From Corticibacter populi (GTDB lineage: Bacteria > Pseudomonadota > Gammaproteobacteria > Burkholderiales > Burkholderiaceae_C), in contig NZ_SGWR01000003.1 in the NCBI RefSeq assembly GCF_004217315.1, forward strand, positions 558,001-622,000: 64,000 nt of DNA, given 5' to 3'. The notes under the pieces were generated by a model. It was not told the origin of the DNA, made no database searches, and worked only from the letters and a program-made list of their open reading frames with translations. Below, piece by piece: positions 33,111-39,887 of the stretch. A program made the translations under genes and the position numbers. Each line of letters starts with the position of its first letter. Position 1 is the first letter of the stretch.

Positions 33111-33722
33111 TCAGGTGCCGCTGGCGGGGGCTGCGGGAAGCTGGTCCGCAGGCGGTGCCGGTGGCCTGGGCGCGTCAGGGCGGTGGCCATCACCCTTTCT
33201 GTGCTCCTGGGGGCCGCGCGGGCCCTGGGGTGGGCGTGGCAGGGTCTCTGCATCGAAGATCTTTTGCTGCTCGGCCGTCAGGCTGGCGTAGAACGTCTTG
33301 GTGGCGGTATCGCGTTCGGCCTGGAGCTGGTCCATGCGCGCCTTGTGCGCATTGCGCAGGTCGATGCGCTCCGGTGTCGTCAGCTTGGCCAGGGACTGGG
33401 GGCCGCCATCCTGCGGCTTGGCATCGCCCTCGGCAGGGGCGGGCCTGGCAGGAGGGCGCATGGCTTGCTGCCAGGTCTGCCACGCACCCTCCTGGGCGCT
33501 GCTGAGCTGCAGCTTCTCCTTGAGGGCCGCGAGCCGGCGCTCACCGAAACGCGCATGGTCCGGTCCCTGGCGGGGGCCGCCATCGGCGCCGGGGCCCCGC
33601 GTCTCGTGGGGACGTGGCGATGATGATGGCTGCGCGTCATCAGCGGCAAATGTGGTGCCGGCAATGGCCAGCGCGAGGCTGCCCAGGATTGCAGCGTGCA
33701 GTCGGGTGGCTTTCAATGACAT
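33111..33722 (-). CDS. Periplasmic LTxxQ-motif protein, Spy/CpxP-like
   Basis: The 203-residue product has a signal peptide (MSLKATRLHAAILGSLALAI, cleavage near TTFAADD). A helical middle part carries the repeated LTxxQ family pattern (LQLSSAQEGAWQTWQQAM and TFYASLTAEQQKIFDAETLP), as in Spy and CpxP, periplasmic chaperones induced by envelope stress. Long Pro/Arg-rich linkers before and after are unusual for E. coli Spy. No two-component genes are adjacent. Confidence 0.82.
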   Translation of the reverse strand: MSLKATRLHAAILGSLALAIAGTTFAADDAQPSSSPRPHETRGPGADGGPRQGPDHARFGERRLAALKEKLQLSSAQEGAWQTWQQAMRPPARPAPAEGDAKPQDGGPQSLAKLTTPERIDLRNAHKARMDQLQAERDTATKTFYASLTAEQQKIFDAETLPRPPQGPRGPQEHRKGDGHRPDAPRPPAPPADQLPAAPASGT

Positions 33723-33901: not shown

Positions 33902-35227
33902 CTATCCGGCCTTGCCTTGAGGGCGCGGCCTGCCCAACTGTTCGAGCCGGCCTTGCCACTGGGCGCGTTGGCGTGGCGTCAGGTCACGCGGGCGGGCGCG
34001 CAACTGGTCCAGCACCCAGCGGGCACGCGTCAGGTCGATCTGGCCGGTGCCGCGCCATTGCCTGGCGTGGTAGTCGGGCCGGTGCAGCATGGCGGCCAGC
34101 CAGGCCGCCTGGGCCGGGTTGAGATCAGCCGCGTCCACGCCAAAGTAGTGCTGCGCCGCGGCCTGGCCGCCGCACTGACCCTCGCCCCAGGGCACGCGCT
34201 GCAGGTATTGCTGCAGGATCCGTGCCTTGCCCAGGCTTTGCTCCATCTCCACCGCATACAGCAGTTCGCGGATCTTGCGCAGCGCCGTGCGGTCATCGCC
34301 GGTGAAGGCCAGCTTGGCCAATTGTTGCGTCAGGGTGCTGGCGCCGCGCAGGCGGCTGGGGCGTCCGTCTGCGCGCGCTTGCTGATTCTGGCGCAGGCTG
34401 TGCTGCCACTCGATCAGGTCGTAGCCCGGGTGCTCGAAGAAGCGCTGGTCTTCCGCGGCGATGACTGCGCGGGCCAGCAGTCCATCCGTAGCGATGGGCG
34501 GAGCGCCATCGGTCTGGCAGCGATGGGGGGCTTGCAGCAGCCTCCGGGTGTCCAAGCCGCTGACGGCAAAGCCGCTGAGTGCGGGATCAACGCTGAATGC
34601 GCCGGCCGGCCAGCGGGCCTGCGCATTCAGGGTGATGCTGCCTTCGATGTGTGCGTGGGCCAGTTCGGGAATGGCGCCGCCGAACAGCGCGAACGCCTCC
34701 TGCAGCGGCTGGTCCTGCAGGTGCAGTTCGACTTCGATCGCATGGGCGTCAAGCGTTCCTTGCCATTGGCCATGGATGCCGTTGGCGCGCCACTGGCCGC
34801 GCAGTTGCTCCACGGCGTCATGGCCTTGCCCCTGGGTTTGGCCGTGCAGCGAGACTTCCAGTTCAGGCAGTTCCAGGGGCGCGCTACCCAGGGCCGGCAG
34901 CAGCAGGCGGCAAGGCGCACAACGCAGTTGCTGGGCCTGCTGCGCGGCGTCCCAGCGGATGTGGAGCAGCCCGGCCGGGGTTTGCCATGTGCTGCCATCG
35001 AGCAGGCGACCGACGCCAGGCTGGCTGAGCAACCGCACTGCGGCGGCGATGCTCACGGGGGCATCGAAGCGCTGGTCGGCCAATCGCAAAAGAGGCAGTC
35101 TCAGTTGCCAGTCGCCGGGCTGCGGGTGCAGGTACCACAGCAGCCCGGTGGCCAGGGCCAGGCCACCGGCCAGCACCATGGCGGCGGCCATGGCCGTCCA
35201 GCGCAGGGCGTTCTTCAAGAGTGGCAT
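33902..35227 (-). CDS. GT51 peptidoglycan glycosyltransferase with long N-terminal extension
   Basis: The 441-residue protein has one N-terminal membrane anchor (about residues 10-32). It carries a GT51 domain in its second half with all key motifs: AAEDQRFFEHPG (catalytic Glu 259), GASTLTQQLAK (295-305), and RKIRELLYAVEMEQSLGKAR then ILQQYLQRVPWGEG. These enzymes polymerise lipid II into glycan strands. There is no transpeptidase domain, so it is monofunctional, but it is almost twice the length of MtgA (about 240). Roughly 210 residues between anchor and catalytic part form a periplasmic, beta-rich-looking domain I do not recognise. It is the third gene after the PEP-CTERM protein and exosortase, 85 bp behind the latter, so it is probably in their operon. 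Confidence 0.88.
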   Translation of the reverse strand: MPLLKNALRWTAMAAAMVLAGGLALATGLLWYLHPQPGDWQLRLPLLRLADQRFDAPVSIAAAVRLLSQPGVGRLLDGSTWQTPAGLLHIRWDAAQQAQQLRCAPCRLLLPALGSAPLELPELEVSLHGQTQGQGHDAVEQLRGQWRANGIHGQWQGTLDAHAIEVELHLQDQPLQEAFALFGGAIPELAHAHIEGSITLNAQARWPAGAFSVDPALSGFAVSGLDTRRLLQAPHRCQTDGAPPIATDGLLARAVIAAEDQRFFEHPGYDLIEWQHSLRQNQQARADGRPSRLRGASTLTQQLAKLAFTGDDRTALRKIRELLYAVEMEQSLGKARILQQYLQRVPWGEGQCGGQAAAQHYFGVDAADLNPAQAAWLAAMLHRPDYHARQWRGTGQIDLTRARWVLDQLRARPRDLTPRQRAQWQGRLEQLGRPRPQGKAG

Positions 35228-35312
35228 TGGGGGAATCTGTCCATGGTCTTTTTGGTGGGCTGCGTCGTACGTCGGGTCTATGGCATGCGCGCAGCCGCTG
35301 TTTCACGTGCGC

Positions 35313-36746
35313 CTACAGCGGGCTGACCACCGTCACGGCCTGCCAGGGGCCCTGTGTCTGGTCCAGCAGCGCAGCCCAGTACCAGGCCGAGGTGTCGGTG
35401 AAACCGTGCCCGGCGGCATCCTCGATGCGTTCGCAGACCCGCAGTTTCTCACCATTTCGCTCGGCGATGAAGCAGCGCCAGGTGTGCCCGCCCGCCTGCT
35501 GTTCCAGGCGTTCGCCATGCACCCGGTAGCCAATGCCGCGGAAGCAGTCGGCGGCCGGATGCAGCATGCGCGTGGGGCGCAGCACATAACGCCAGACGAG
35601 CACCTCGCGGCCAGTGCTCAGGCGTTCGATGCGGCCGGGGAATTGCGCTGCAAACCGGGCCTCGATTTCACCGAGTGCGAGCGGGCGCAGAGGTCGGCCC
35701 TGCCAGTCGACCGGCCATTCGACGGCAGCATGGGCTGAGGGGCGGGATGGGTGGCCGTCCTGCGCAAAAGGCCCTGGCGCCGCAGCCATCAGTTGCCAGG
35801 CCGCGCACAGCCCGGCGAGCAGCCACAGCGCAGTGGCTGCGCGGCGCGGCGGCAAGACCGTTGGCGCGGAGGCTGTCAGCACCGGCCGGTGCGCCAAAGA
35901 GGCTGCACTGCTGGGCTGCATCAGCCTCCAGACGGCGGCGCAAACCAGCAGCAGCACGGCCAGCCCGATGCCCTCATGCCAGAAGGGGGCCAGTGGTTCT
36001 CCCTGGGACTGCCAGGCTACCAGCACGGTGTTGCGCACGATGTTGCCCGCCAGCACCAGCGCGCCTACCAGCGGCAGCCGGCGCAGAAAGCGGCGGTTGC
36101 CCGCGCCGGCGTGCAGGGCCGCCAGGCAGGCGACGAAGTAGCCCCACCAGGCCATTTGTACGCCGGAGCAGGCGGCATCGACGAGGACCAACTGCCCATC
36201 GACCAGCAAGCTGGCGCCGCTGCGCGCGACCACATGCTGGCTGCTCAGCAACCAGCGCGAGGCTTCGGCCACCAGCACGCGCAGCGGATAGCCCAGGTAG
36301 AACTGCAGCGAGGCCAGCAGCGGCAGCGAGAGCACGGCCAGGCCCAGCAGCGGGGCGCTGGCCAGCTTGACCGGCCGGACCGATAGCAGACAGGCGGTGA
36401 CTGCCAGCATGGCCAGCAGCGCCGAAAGCAGGGCCGGCCCATGCGCATGGGCCAGCATGGCCAGCAGCGTCAGCAGCGCGCCGGCCATCAGCCAGCGGGC
36501 ATCGGCCTGGCGCCGCCATGGCTGCCGCTGTGCCAGGCCCAGCCACAGCAGTGCCAGCAGTGCAAGGATGCCCAGCGGCTCGTCCGATCCGTCGCGCAGG
36601 CGGGCCAGCATCCACAGCGCCTGAGGCCACAGCGCCGCTGCCAGCAACGCCAGACCCCATGCCATGGTGCGGATCCGTGATTTCCGGCTTGATGCGGGCG
36701 CGGGCATGGCCGTGGTGGATGTCGAGGCTTGCGTGGGAGTGGTCAT
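35313..36746 (-). CDS. Exosortase with C-terminal periplasmic domain
   Basis: Exosortases are membrane enzymes that process the PEP-CTERM tails of secreted proteins. This 477-residue protein has about eight to nine hydrophobic helices and the catalytic triad in standard order: Cys193 in VDAACSGVQMAWWGYF, Arg238 in GNIVRNTVLV, His257 in WHEGIGLAVLLL. After a last helix (about 304-320) there is a 150-residue soluble domain with LHPAADCFRGIGYRV, reminiscent of the EpsI-type partners often fused to exosortases. Unlike EpsH/XrtA, it is not next to exopolysaccharide genes; instead it lies 37 bp after a gene for a single PEP-CTERM protein. It may be a dedicated one-target class (XrtT-like naming is possible but I could not verify it). 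Confidence 0.88.
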   Translation of the reverse strand: MTTPTQASTSTTAMPAPASSRKSRIRTMAWGLALLAAALWPQALWMLARLRDGSDEPLGILALLALLWLGLAQRQPWRRQADARWLMAGALLTLLAMLAHAHGPALLSALLAMLAVTACLLSVRPVKLASAPLLGLAVLSLPLLASLQFYLGYPLRVLVAEASRWLLSSQHVVARSGASLLVDGQLVLVDAACSGVQMAWWGYFVACLAALHAGAGNRRFLRRLPLVGALVLAGNIVRNTVLVAWQSQGEPLAPFWHEGIGLAVLLLVCAAVWRLMQPSSAASLAHRPVLTASAPTVLPPRRAATALWLLAGLCAAWQLMAAAPGPFAQDGHPSRPSAHAAVEWPVDWQGRPLRPLALGEIEARFAAQFPGRIERLSTGREVLVWRYVLRPTRMLHPAADCFRGIGYRVHGERLEQQAGGHTWRCFIAERNGEKLRVCERIEDAAGHGFTDTSAWYWAALLDQTQGPWQAVTVVSPL

Positions 36747-36783
36747 GGCACTGGCTGGCTGGTGGGATGGGACAGATGGGGGA

Positions 36784-39114
36784 TCAGCGCGTCCAGCGCT
36801 GGCGTCCTGCGCGATGCTGGCGGCGCGTCAGCAGGGCCAGCAGCGACAGCACCAGCAAGGCCGCGCCCCAGGTGGCGGGTTCCGGCGTGCTGGGCACGGC
36901 AGCGCCAATGGCCAAGGGGCTGACGCCCTCGGGCAGTGGCGTGGGTTGATCCACTGGCGCGCTCACCGCGTCGGCTGCCCTGCGTACCAGTTGGTCGATG
37001 GCGATGAAACTGGTGTAGTCGGTCAGCAGGCCATACTGCAGGCCCAGCGCGGTGATGGCCTGGCGCTGTGAATCGTCGCCCAGCAGGGCTTCCTGGTCGG
37101 AGAGGCCGGCAATGCGGTGGCGCGCCCACAGGTGCCGCAGGGCCTGGTGCAGGGCGGCTGCATCCGCATTGGTGTCTGCATCGGCATTTCCGGCGGCGGG
37201 TGTGGCGCCTGGCGGCACCGGCGGTGTCTGGGCGAAGGGCAGGCGCTGTTCATAGCGCAGCTCGGCGGTGTGGCCCTGCAGGCGCAGGCTGCCCGCCGGC
37301 AGGTCTTCGCGCGTCCCGCGCCATTTGCCGAACAGCACCACGGGGCGCTGGGCGAGCACATCGGGCAGTTGCGGCGGCTCGACGTCGTAGGCATCAATGT
37401 CGTCGAACACTGCCTTGACGCTGGTGAGCACCGGCGTCTCGACCATGCGGCGAAAGCGCTCGGCTTCACTGCGGGCCTGGCGGGCGTCGGTGATGATGAA
37501 GGGCTCGCCCATGCCGGCACGCGCCAGGCCTTCCATCAGATGGCGGTTGACCGAAGAGCCGATGCCGAAGGCGAACACATTGGCCTCGTTGAGGTGCTCG
37601 CGCACCAGTGCGAAGGCCTCGCGCTCGACCGAGACGTAGCCGTCGGTGACGACGATCACGCTGCGCGAGAGCTGTGGTGCCTTGGGCAGGCGGTAGACGC
37701 GCCGCAGCGCCGGCATGAGCTCGGTGCCGCCGCCGCCCTGGTAATGCTCGATGGTGTCGATGGCGCGCTGGATATTCTCGGCCGTGGCTGCCACCGAGCG
37801 CTCGTGCAGCACGCGGTTGCTGCCGGAGAACAACAACACGTTGAAAGTGTCGGTGGGACGCAGGCCGCCGATGAGCTCGCGCAGCATGGTTTTGGCGGTC
37901 TGCAGCGGAAAGCCGTGCATCGAGCCGGAGACATCGACGACGAAGATGTAGTCGCGCGGGCTGATCTGCGCGCTGGGGACGGCCTTGGGCGGCTCGATCA
38001 TGGCGAGGAAGAAGTTCTCGTCATCGCCGCCGCCGTTGCCCGCGTCGCCGCCGTGGGAGACCAGCAGGCCGGCCTCGACCCGATCACCTGCTAGCCGGTA
38101 GTCGAGGATGAAGTCGCGGTTGTGCGGCGGACGGCCCTGGGCGTCGGCGGCGAGGCGCAGGCTGGCCCGGCGACCGTTGTCATCAATGTGCGTCTCAAGG
38201 GCATGGCTGGGAGATTCAATGGCCTTGATGGGGATCGGCGAATCCAGCCGCAGCGCCAGTGTGAAGGCATCGGCCGGGGTGGTGGCGCCGGCGGCCGTGG
38301 CGAGCACGGGCTGGGCGATGGGCGTGTCAAGGGCCTGCGCGGCAGCGGGGCTGTTGTAGCGCGGGCCGACGACCGTGGGGAACACGAACTGGTAACGGCC
38401 ATCGCTGGGTACCAGCAGTTCGGTGTAGCGCAGCTCGACCTGCACCGTGTCGCCCGGCAGGATGTTGGCCACGTTCATCTGGAACACGTTGGGGCGGTGC
38501 TGCTCCAGCAGCGCGGCGGTCTTGCCCGCGCGCTGAGCTTCCTCGTAATCGACGCGGGCCTGCTGCTTCTCGCGGATCTGCGCGGTGATCAGCCGCTCGC
38601 CCAGCCGCACCTGCATGGCATGCACGGCCGCGTGCGTCGAGCCGGGAAACAGATAGCGTGCCTCGATGGCCCGGCTGCCCTCGTTGCGGTAAGTCTGCCG
38701 CACCCTCACGTTGGCGATCACACCGGCGACATGCACGTCCACCTCGGTGGCCTTGAGGGGCAGCGCATCGAGTGCCGGGTCGGCATGGGGCAGATAGAAG
38801 TAGGGACTTTCGGCCTGGCCGGTGCCAGCACCTCCCGCCTGAGTGGCCGCAGGCAGGCAGGCCCAGCCGATGAAGACCAGCCCCGCCATGGCGGCGGCTC
38901 GGCCGAGCTGCCGTGCGGCTGTCCGGCACTGGTCGTGCAGGCGCAGCAGCTCCAGGATGAAGGTCTCGGCCCGGGGACCGTCCACGTCATGGGCGGTTCT
39001 CGGTGCTGTAGACACCATGGCTTGCATGGCCGATGCGGCATGGCGGCGCAGCCGGGGAGGCAGAGGGCGGGAGGTGGCATCGCGGCGGATGGTGTCAGCG
39101 CTGTAGGCGGGCAT
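36784..39114 (-). CDS. VIT and VWA domain protein with PEP-CTERM sorting tail
   Basis: The 776-residue product has a long cytosolic N-terminus and a hydrophobic export segment (about 70-93, ending PAATQAGG). It then has a VIT domain (about 105-240, with TYRNEGSRAIEARYLFPGST and NVFQMNVANILPGDTVQVEL), and a VWA domain (about 388-570) with an intact MIDAS start, DVSGS (394-398). A closing PEP-CTERM signal has TPEPATW (743-749), a hydrophobic helix and Arg-rich end. This is the layout of inter-alpha-trypsin-inhibitor-heavy-chain-like surface proteins. It is presumably exported and cut by the exosortase encoded next. The start at 39114 follows GGAG; a longer form to 39156 is less likely. Function unknown; adhesive or matrix-binding roles are typical of the domains. 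Confidence 0.9.
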   Translation of the reverse strand: MPAYSADTIRRDATSRPLPPRLRRHAASAMQAMVSTAPRTAHDVDGPRAETFILELLRLHDQCRTAARQLGRAAAMAGLVFIGWACLPAATQAGGAGTGQAESPYFYLPHADPALDALPLKATEVDVHVAGVIANVRVRQTYRNEGSRAIEARYLFPGSTHAAVHAMQVRLGERLITAQIREKQQARVDYEEAQRAGKTAALLEQHRPNVFQMNVANILPGDTVQVELRYTELLVPSDGRYQFVFPTVVGPRYNSPAAAQALDTPIAQPVLATAAGATTPADAFTLALRLDSPIPIKAIESPSHALETHIDDNGRRASLRLAADAQGRPPHNRDFILDYRLAGDRVEAGLLVSHGGDAGNGGGDDENFFLAMIEPPKAVPSAQISPRDYIFVVDVSGSMHGFPLQTAKTMLRELIGGLRPTDTFNVLLFSGSNRVLHERSVAATAENIQRAIDTIEHYQGGGGTELMPALRRVYRLPKAPQLSRSVIVVTDGYVSVEREAFALVREHLNEANVFAFGIGSSVNRHLMEGLARAGMGEPFIITDARQARSEAERFRRMVETPVLTSVKAVFDDIDAYDVEPPQLPDVLAQRPVVLFGKWRGTREDLPAGSLRLQGHTAELRYEQRLPFAQTPPVPPGATPAAGNADADTNADAAALHQALRHLWARHRIAGLSDQEALLGDDSQRQAITALGLQYGLLTDYTSFIAIDQLVRRAADAVSAPVDQPTPLPEGVSPLAIGAAVPSTPEPATWGAALLVLSLLALLTRRQHRAGRQRWTR

Positions 39115-39353
39115 GGAAGGCTCCAATCGAAGTGACAGGGGGAACATGCCCGCCACGATGCCGGCCGCCCGTGAACTGCGCTTGAAGTGCCAGGACCCAC
39201 TGTGAAGCCCGTGTGATGACGGTGTGAAAAGCGCACAGTCCCTGGCCTGCGGCGGCGCCGCTCCGCATCAGGGCCTGGCGGCCGCAGGCTTGTGCTATCG
39301 TGCGGGCCTCTGGCGGCCGCGCTGCGTGGCCATGTCGATGTTGTGCCCCCTTT

Positions 39354-39887
39354 ATGTCTCCAAACCTTCCGAATTCTTCCCTCTCCCGGGCGGCCGCGCG
39401 TCAGCCTTTCTGGCGCTGGCTGATGGTGGCACTGCTGGTGGTGGCGCTTGACCATGCGACCAAGTACTGGATCCTGCAGCATTACCAGTGGGGCGATGCG
39501 AGTGTCGTGACCGGCTTCTTCAACATCGTGCGGGCGCACAATACCGGCGCGGCGTTCTCGTTGTTGGCAGACCATGGCGGCTGGCAGCGCTGGTTTTTCG
39601 TGCTGGTGGCTGCTGCTGCGACGCTCTTCATCCTGTGGCAGCTCAGGGCGCATGGCGGGCAGAAGCTGGCGTCCTTCTCGCTGGCCTGCATCATGGGCGG
39701 CGCCATCGGCAATGTGATCGACCGCCTGATGCACGGCTACGTGGTGGACTTCCTCGATTTCCACTGGCAGGGTCGCCATTTCCCTGCCTTCAACGTGGCC
39801 GACATGGCCATCAGCGTTGGCGTCGCCGGCATGCTGCTGGCCGAGCTGCTGCGCTGGCGCCGCGAGCGCAGCCAACCGCAGGCATAG
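39354..39887 (+). CDS. lspA: Lipoprotein signal peptidase (signal peptidase II)
   Basis: Cuts signal peptides from prolipoproteins in the inner membrane. The 177-residue protein has four hydrophobic helices and the family motifs [46 protein letters not shown] (catalytic Asp in IDR) and [14 protein letters not shown] (second catalytic Asp). It is unusual in not sitting with ileS and ispH. No strong ribosome site precedes the ATG; upstream in-frame starts exist but would not match the family. It is divergent from the PEP-CTERM protein gene. Confidence 0.96.

Follow-up and report, generated by a model that had tools for sequence, protein, structure and literature searches.

A Conserved Gene Trio of Exosortase Q, a VIT/VWA Target and a GT51 Protein and Its Possible Place in the CreBC Cell-Wall Stress Response

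Introduction

Bacterial proteins with a VIT and a VWA domain can have sorting enzymes of their own, and such proteins with three kinds of sorting tail, together with the enzymes, were published in 2011 (PMC3237569, in the part cited). In NCBIfam, a Gram-negative dedicated sortase system pairs a VIT/VWA target (TIGR03788) with the sortase encoded beside it (TIGR03784) and has a family-specific two-component pair (TIGR03785/TIGR03787). The XrtT and XrtN systems also combine exosortases with VIT-domain targets. Here, we analyze a 64,000-nucleotide stretch of the Corticibacter populi genome (contig NZ_SGWR01000003.1, positions 558,001 to 622,000; hereafter the window), which encodes a VIT/VWA protein, an exosortase and a protein with a glycosyltransferase family 51 (GT51) domain one behind the other. 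A preliminary description of the window had taken exosortase and VIT/VWA protein as a dedicated pair and the GT51 gene as a linked part of it.

The locus resembles the sortase system in that a VIT/VWA target lies beside its own sorting enzyme. In contrast to that system, the enzyme is an exosortase, the tail is PEP-CTERM-like, the target stays below the TIGR03788 cut-off, and the loci are linked to CreBC instead of the two-component pair of the sortase. The exosortase passes the cut-off of the exosortase Q (XrtQ) model NF012182, but differs by a C-terminal domain fused behind the modeled part (residues 27-276); XrtT and XrtN are other exosortase families. As in the CreBC/CreD regulon of E. coli, Pseudomonas and Aeromonas (there BlrAB), the box TTCACN6TTCAC is present (PMC4689548, in the part cited), and creBC, in nine loci also creD, lie beside the operon. 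The consulted parts of the CreBC regulon literature mention no exosortase operon as a member. The GT51 protein has the GT51 domain and its motifs in common with monofunctional MtgA and class A penicillin-binding proteins (PBPs). Set against these enzymes, it lacks a transpeptidase domain, carries a beta-rich domain and stays below the cut-offs of all NCBIfam models listed.

That dedicated pairs of sorting enzyme and target are known as a concept, as the preliminary description had it, agrees with the VIT/VWA cases printed in 2011 (PMC3237569, in the part cited). The open-license literature of PubMed Central (PMC) yielded nothing joining an exosortase with XrtQ, a VIT domain or CreB, nothing joining PEP-CTERM with a peptidoglycan glycosyltransferase, and for exosortase with transglycosylase only papers unrelated by title; neither the GT51 linkage nor the CreB box of XrtQ was found in print there. 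VIT/VWA sorting pairs and the XrtQ model are known; the novelty lies in the GT51 component, including its domain, and in the CreB box.

The Three-Gene Locus of Corticibacter populi

The locus comprises the following features, all on the minus strand:

36784..39114, minus strand: VIT/VWA target protein with VIT and VWA domains (open reading frame, Pfam and NCBIfam matches)
36787..36903, minus strand: C-terminal sorting tail of the target, VPSTPEP, helix and basic end (alignment, tail profile)
35313..36746, minus strand: exosortase Q (residues 27-276) fused to a C-terminal domain (NCBIfam, Pfam, alignment)
33902..35227, minus strand: GT51 protein with helix 2-33, beta-rich domain 41-223 and GT51 domain 251-409 (Pfam, structure model)
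34523..35227, minus strand: residues 1-235 of the GT51 protein, an N-terminal stretch with invariant CxxC that served as profile A1 (alignment)
39202..39228, minus strand: triple CreB box (cre tag), TTCAC-N6-ATCAC-N6-TTCAC, lying some 88 bases upstream of the ATG at 39114

The three genes lie where the preliminary description had placed them, and Pfam matches agree with its assignments. They are transcribed in the order VIT/VWA, exosortase, GT51, separated by gaps of 37 and 85 bases, neither of which contains a terminator-like site. The VIT gene is taken to start with the ATG at 39114, the in-frame GTG at 39156 being an alternative start. The window belongs to contig C3 of a 4.2 Mb genome; judged by the GT51 protein, the nearest named relative is Lampropedia puyangensis (Comamonadaceae). 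The description had also reported the window to be free of exopolysaccharide genes. This holds for ten large open reading frames of the window, the only ones checked: none is an exopolysaccharide gene, and four have no Pfam match. A search of a plasmid collection with the three genes returned one weak match, annotated as a TonB-linked receptor.

Conservation of Gene Order and Co-occurrence

The three-gene order recurs in other genomes. In three overlapping samples, XrtQ exceeded its cut-off in 46 of 299 family genomes, five of 399 from the order and five of 398 from the phylum. Flanks were collected for these matches, for weaker ones and for two named loci, giving 52 VIT/exosortase loci (numbered L; genomes are numbered G) besides the window, among them L022 and L023 with XrtQ below cut-off. 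The order VIT-exosortase-GT51 is present in 47 of the 52, each time on a single strand, as the preliminary description had proposed to look for. Two of the five loci without an adjacent GT51 gene end at contig edges (L100, which still contains the first part of a GT51, and L109), and three lack it (L020, L094 and L111). The junction before GT51 could be measured in 44 loci, with start codons chosen by a script; a 4-base overlap of the GT51 start with the stop in front of it occurs in 22 of these, and a gap of no more than 30 bases in 31. Furthermore, the distances of the three proteins correlate over 46 loci (r 0.78-0.82), to which shared descent contributes.

Co-occurrence was counted in the 299 family genomes, with XrtQ taken at 200 bits or more and the N-terminal domain of the GT51 protein by strong matches. 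Both are found in 46 genomes, XrtQ alone in two (G432 and G537), the domain alone in two (G518 and G653) and neither in 249 (Fisher p 3e-49, uncorrected for kinship). Hence, gene order and co-occurrence support the GT51 gene as a conserved linked gene of the exosortase pair rather than a chance neighbor, which bears out the link suggested in the preliminary description.

Loci in which the modules separate set the limit of this link. The preliminary description had named absence of the GT51 gene beside the pair in relatives as one of the observations that would speak against it, and the gene is absent there in G279, G432 and G827. A strict partnership with the pair is therefore given up; these three genomes and G518 rule out an obligate partnership of GT51 protein and exosortase. 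A search of the whole genomes of G279, G432 and G827 did not find the N-terminal domain of the GT51 protein. The GT51 protein of G518 falls within a 21-row set of GT51 proteins that are otherwise linked to XrtQ (96/88), its exact place in the set being weak (80/24); on a tree rooted at midpoint, loss of target and exosortase is likelier for G518 than an ancestral state. The other domain-only genome, G653, offers a 4.1 kb contig with a GT51 frame that lacks the catalytic middle and with no target or exosortase match. G424 shows a partial XrtQ match (model positions 1-107) behind creC and no VIT match within the 20 kb read.

The CreB Box and the creBC Neighborhood

Because creBC and creD adjoin many loci, the known CreB box, defined as TTCACN6TTCAC (PMC4689548, in the part cited), was looked for between -900 and +60 of the VIT anchor in 53 loci, i.e., the window and the 52 others. 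With at most one mismatch, it is present upstream of VIT in 49 of the 53 loci, window included, and in exact form in 44. Upstream sequence totaling 50 kb yields 68 box matches and the remaining 788 kb of these loci 36, and all 65 matches of the 52 other loci share the VIT strand. A count of all 5-mers repeated at a spacing of 6, made without presetting the letters, ranks TTCAC first (44 of 53 loci), followed by its own shifts; spacings of 2 to 13 other than 6 reach 5, and a control stretch inside the VIT gene reaches 7. The triple pattern of the window, with T or A allowed at the variant place, occurs once in the whole 4.2 Mb genome, and the reversed control is not found. The box is missed in L023, L095, L100 and L111. 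In L095, VIT could be recovered as one frame only in its 3' part, which places the stretch read inside the gene, and L100 offers 73 bases of upstream sequence. Relic loci L138, L139 and L140 retain a box.

Within the flanks collected, 29 of the 52 loci have a creC match of 250 bits or more upstream and in the same orientation; in some others, e.g., G350, creC lies just outside the flank. Of the 23 loci whose collected flank shows no creC, 19 keep the box, and the other four are the misses named above. In the 20 genomes searched, the creC adjacent to the operon is above the curated cut-off in G171, G443, G474, G512, G516, G586 and G674; in relic locus L138, both CreB and CreC pass their cut-offs. 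The window's own genome encodes creC on contig C2 (612.8 bits, cut-off 356) with an adjoining creB match.

Further features of this region were seen on the side. About 28-45 bases past the box, many loci show a loose pattern, CTTC(A/G)AA followed by GCTTC, of about the same period, which could represent further half-sites or promoter elements. In the window (39300-39887, plus strand) and likewise in L016, lspA for signal peptidase II is divergent from VIT; elsewhere, this place is taken by creBC or creD. In L172 (4734-10022), creBC and VIT are separated by a bifunctional PBP gene and creD, both encoded on the opposite strand.

The Exosortase and Its Target

The exosortase of the window is assigned to XrtQ (NF012182, 302.4 bits, curated cut-off 270; residues 27-276 covered) and matches Pfam Exosortase_EpsH with 88.9 bits. 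The XrtT model gives a longer match, up to residue 476, and therefore indicates a second domain behind the exosortase part, which we take to be EpsI-like. In most relatives, this domain is a separate gene; by an automatic length rule, it is fused in eight of 47 loci. Cys193, Arg238 and His257, presumably the catalytic Cys, Arg and His of exosortases, are each conserved in 59 of 60 aligned rows. The full residue set given in the preliminary description is accordingly present and its identification as an exosortase stands, with the correction that the gene joins XrtQ to a domain encoded separately in most relatives.

The target matches Pfam VIT (115.9 bits) and VWA_3 (72.4 bits), and reaches 421.7 bits with TIGR03788 (marine proteobacterial sortase target), below the curated cut-off of 551.65. 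Its C-terminus has the tripartite form of VPSTPEP, helix and basic end. The Pro and Glu of the motif are kept in all 54 aligned VIT rows and the second Pro in 51, the exceptions being TPEA in L096 and L103 and TPEQ in L106. The PEP-CTERM tail of the preliminary description is borne out in this form and in the conserved P-E-P, but not by the Pfam model PF07589, with which the tail scores 16.1 bits (cut-off 20.7).

Since a PF07589 search of the whole genome missed even the target itself, a profile built from 28 tails was used instead. With 150 of the 166 first-look candidates of the window's genome scored, it gave one match, the target, and one exosortase was found in this genome. The single target suggested earlier for the exosortase holds here by the tail profile, and the two look like a dedicated pair in the window's genome. 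Among 13 XrtQ genomes tested, the profile has a single match in nine and two to eight matches in the other four.

Related units were met in several stretches. On the minus strand, L024 (7438-11219) and L025 (7453-11171) contain a second exosortase unit, whose XrtQ-like enzyme does not reach the cut-off (129 bits in L024) and is preceded by an 800-residue protein with the tail VPTVPEPETW. In L024, this protein matches the VIT protein of the XrtN system best, with 114.6 bits and thus short of the cut-off. Both units have an exact CreB box immediately upstream, and no GT51 match was found in either stretch. L114 holds a similar target and exosortase, with no exact box in the stretch read. In L115 (4270-8882), the neighbors of XrtT (687.6 bits) are a VIT/VWA protein with 435 bits for TIGR03788 and a response regulator resembling CreB, each short of the respective cut-off; this stretch has no GT51 match.

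The GT51 Protein

The GT51 protein matches Pfam Transgly PF00912 with 144.9 bits (cut-off 27) and reaches 127.8 bits with the MtgA model TIGR02070, below the cut-off of 182.65. Residues E259, D260, H266, G268, S297, Q301, Q302, R317, K318 and E321, which we take to be the functional motifs of the glycosyltransferase family, are present in 49 of 49 rows. An AlphaFold2 model from 39 aligned sequences (predicted local distance difference test, pLDDT, 93.0) comprises the helix 2-33, the beta-rich domain 41-223 and the GT51 domain. All 27 PDB fold matches with E of at most 0.001 are GT51 enzymes.

All 49 rows share CxxC, P187-E188 and G196 in the beta-rich domain. Among the 29 members scanned, any single Pfam family was matched by one member at most (best E 0.023), the best match among PDB sequences has an E of 0.56, and no PDB fold reaches E 0.001. 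An AsmA/GspN-like nature, suggested by the looks of the domain, was dropped, as no Pfam, PDB sequence or fold match supported it.

Some genes accompany this protein. Behind GT51 and in its orientation, 14 XrtQ loci (e.g., L075, L086 and L104) and L138 carry LemA and two TPM-domain genes. In the window, an LTXXQ gene, presumably of the Spy/CpxP type, lies behind GT51 (33111-33722, minus strand), with like matches in L018, L065, L067, L080 and L089. L169 (5610-10751) and L170 (5929-11066) contain, in a row, a GT51 with a related N-terminus, a Mur ligase, a TonB-like gene and a pseudouridine synthase (domains named from L169), and no exosortase match was found in these rows.

Proposed Function and Alternative Explanations

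The CreB box and the creBC neighbors, together with the finding that loss of PBP4 in P. aeruginosa activates CreBC and raises creD (PMC2654508, in the part cited), lead us to read the locus as a cell-wall stress response. With a probability of roughly 0.6, the trio is a dedicated XrtQ operon in the CreBC cell-wall stress regulon, in which target and polymerase are parallel effectors of one response. CreC/CreB, encoded elsewhere in the window's genome, would sense disturbed peptidoglycan, and CreB might bind the tag at 39202-39228, as the sequence of the tag suggests, and switch on the three genes. The VIT/VWA protein would leave the cytoplasm through Sec, its tail keeping it in the inner membrane. 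XrtQ, together with the domain fused to it, would cut at or near TPEP and release or anchor the target, whose VWA domain could then bind a partner. The GT51 protein, with its one-helix anchor and a periplasmic beta-rich domain, would polymerize lipid II to patch the wall. We infer CreB binding, target cleavage and GT51 activity, as well as a shared repair or reinforcement response for target and polymerase. The coordination with the cell wall suggested in the preliminary description gains independent support from the CreB box and the creBC neighbors, whereas a coupling of surface display to local wall synthesis is a step that we infer.

Several observations weigh against the operon being a CreBC-controlled unit of three. 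L020, L094 and L111, i.e., the loci of G279, G432 and G827, are intact without GT51, and XrtQ in G537 is cut by the contig start, with no GT51 or full partner domain in the following 8 kb. The complete genome of G518 has the row creB-creC-GT51-lemA, where target and exosortase are missing. Moreover, a similar GT51 occurs without XrtQ by a Mur ligase and a TonB-like gene in G311 and G340, both outside the family, so that this form of the enzyme extends beyond the XrtQ link. The co-occurrence is uncorrected for kinship, and some loci are near-copies. As for regulation, the window box has one mismatch per repeat pair, with ATCAC as the middle repeat and no exact TTCACN6TTCAC, and the scan found no sigma-70 promoter-like site. 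In the window's genome, creBC is unlinked to the operon, and neither a creD match nor a box lies within the 12 kb read around creBC, creD elsewhere not having been searched. In the nine loci with creD divergent beside VIT, the box might belong to creD, yet it is oriented like VIT.

Target and polymerase might instead form an enzyme chain, in which XrtQ transfers the target onto lipid II or another wall precursor and the GT51 protein polymerizes the loaded precursor into peptidoglycan, analogous to the lipid II path of sortase A. A dedicated GT51 in the same operon, its conserved catalytic residues and the near-complete co-occurrence would fit, as would the service of the same target type by a peptidoglycan-type sortase in other bacteria (PMC3237569, in the part cited). 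However, three complete loci have target and exosortase but no GT51, G518 keeps GT51 alone, and a related GT51 exists apart from XrtQ; moreover, which acceptor exosortases use is not settled (PMC12188702, in the part cited). Because of the loci without GT51 and of G518, parallel effectors are likelier than an obligate chain, which we consider improbable. The same low expectation applies to its strongest form, a CreBC-induced Gram-negative exosortase that plants a VIT/VWA protein covalently in new peptidoglycan via lipid II or a similar precursor and GT51.

The extra domain of the GT51 protein could also act as a gate or scaffold that helps the target through or onto the wall, which the polymerase would then close again. 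Its invariant CxxC, P187-E188 and G196 and its co-occurrence with XrtQ speak for such a function, yet no fold or family match indicates a role for the domain and loci without GT51 exist, which leaves this explanation unlikely but worth keeping in mind. Alternatively, the GT51 gene may be a neighbor carried along, with the exosortase pair working alone and the shared box reflecting an old creBCD neighborhood. The adjoining creBC or creD of many loci and the few genomes with separated modules agree with this. It is hard to reconcile with the 4-base overlaps in half of the measurable loci and with a co-occurrence of 46 versus 2 and 2, and the box persists in the window and in most loci whose collected flank has no creC. 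We regard a mere neighbor as quite unlikely. Parallel effectors within a CreBC-controlled operon are the reading that we prefer.

Implications

Exosortases are mostly discussed with exopolysaccharide, and the destination of their products is not settled: a 2025 paper on cyanoexosortase B stresses exopolysaccharide and leaves the anchor of PEP-CTERM proteins unsettled (PMC12188702, in the part cited). The trio suggests when (wall stress) and by which regulator (CreB) an exosortase is switched on, and it provides one substrate together with a partner enzyme, which makes exosortase function and acceptor directly testable. If parallel effectors under CreBC control are the correct reading, the CreBC regulon would gain a new class of genes, together with a GT51 architecture that includes an unmatched domain, and exosortase-type protein sorting could be part of a response to wall damage.

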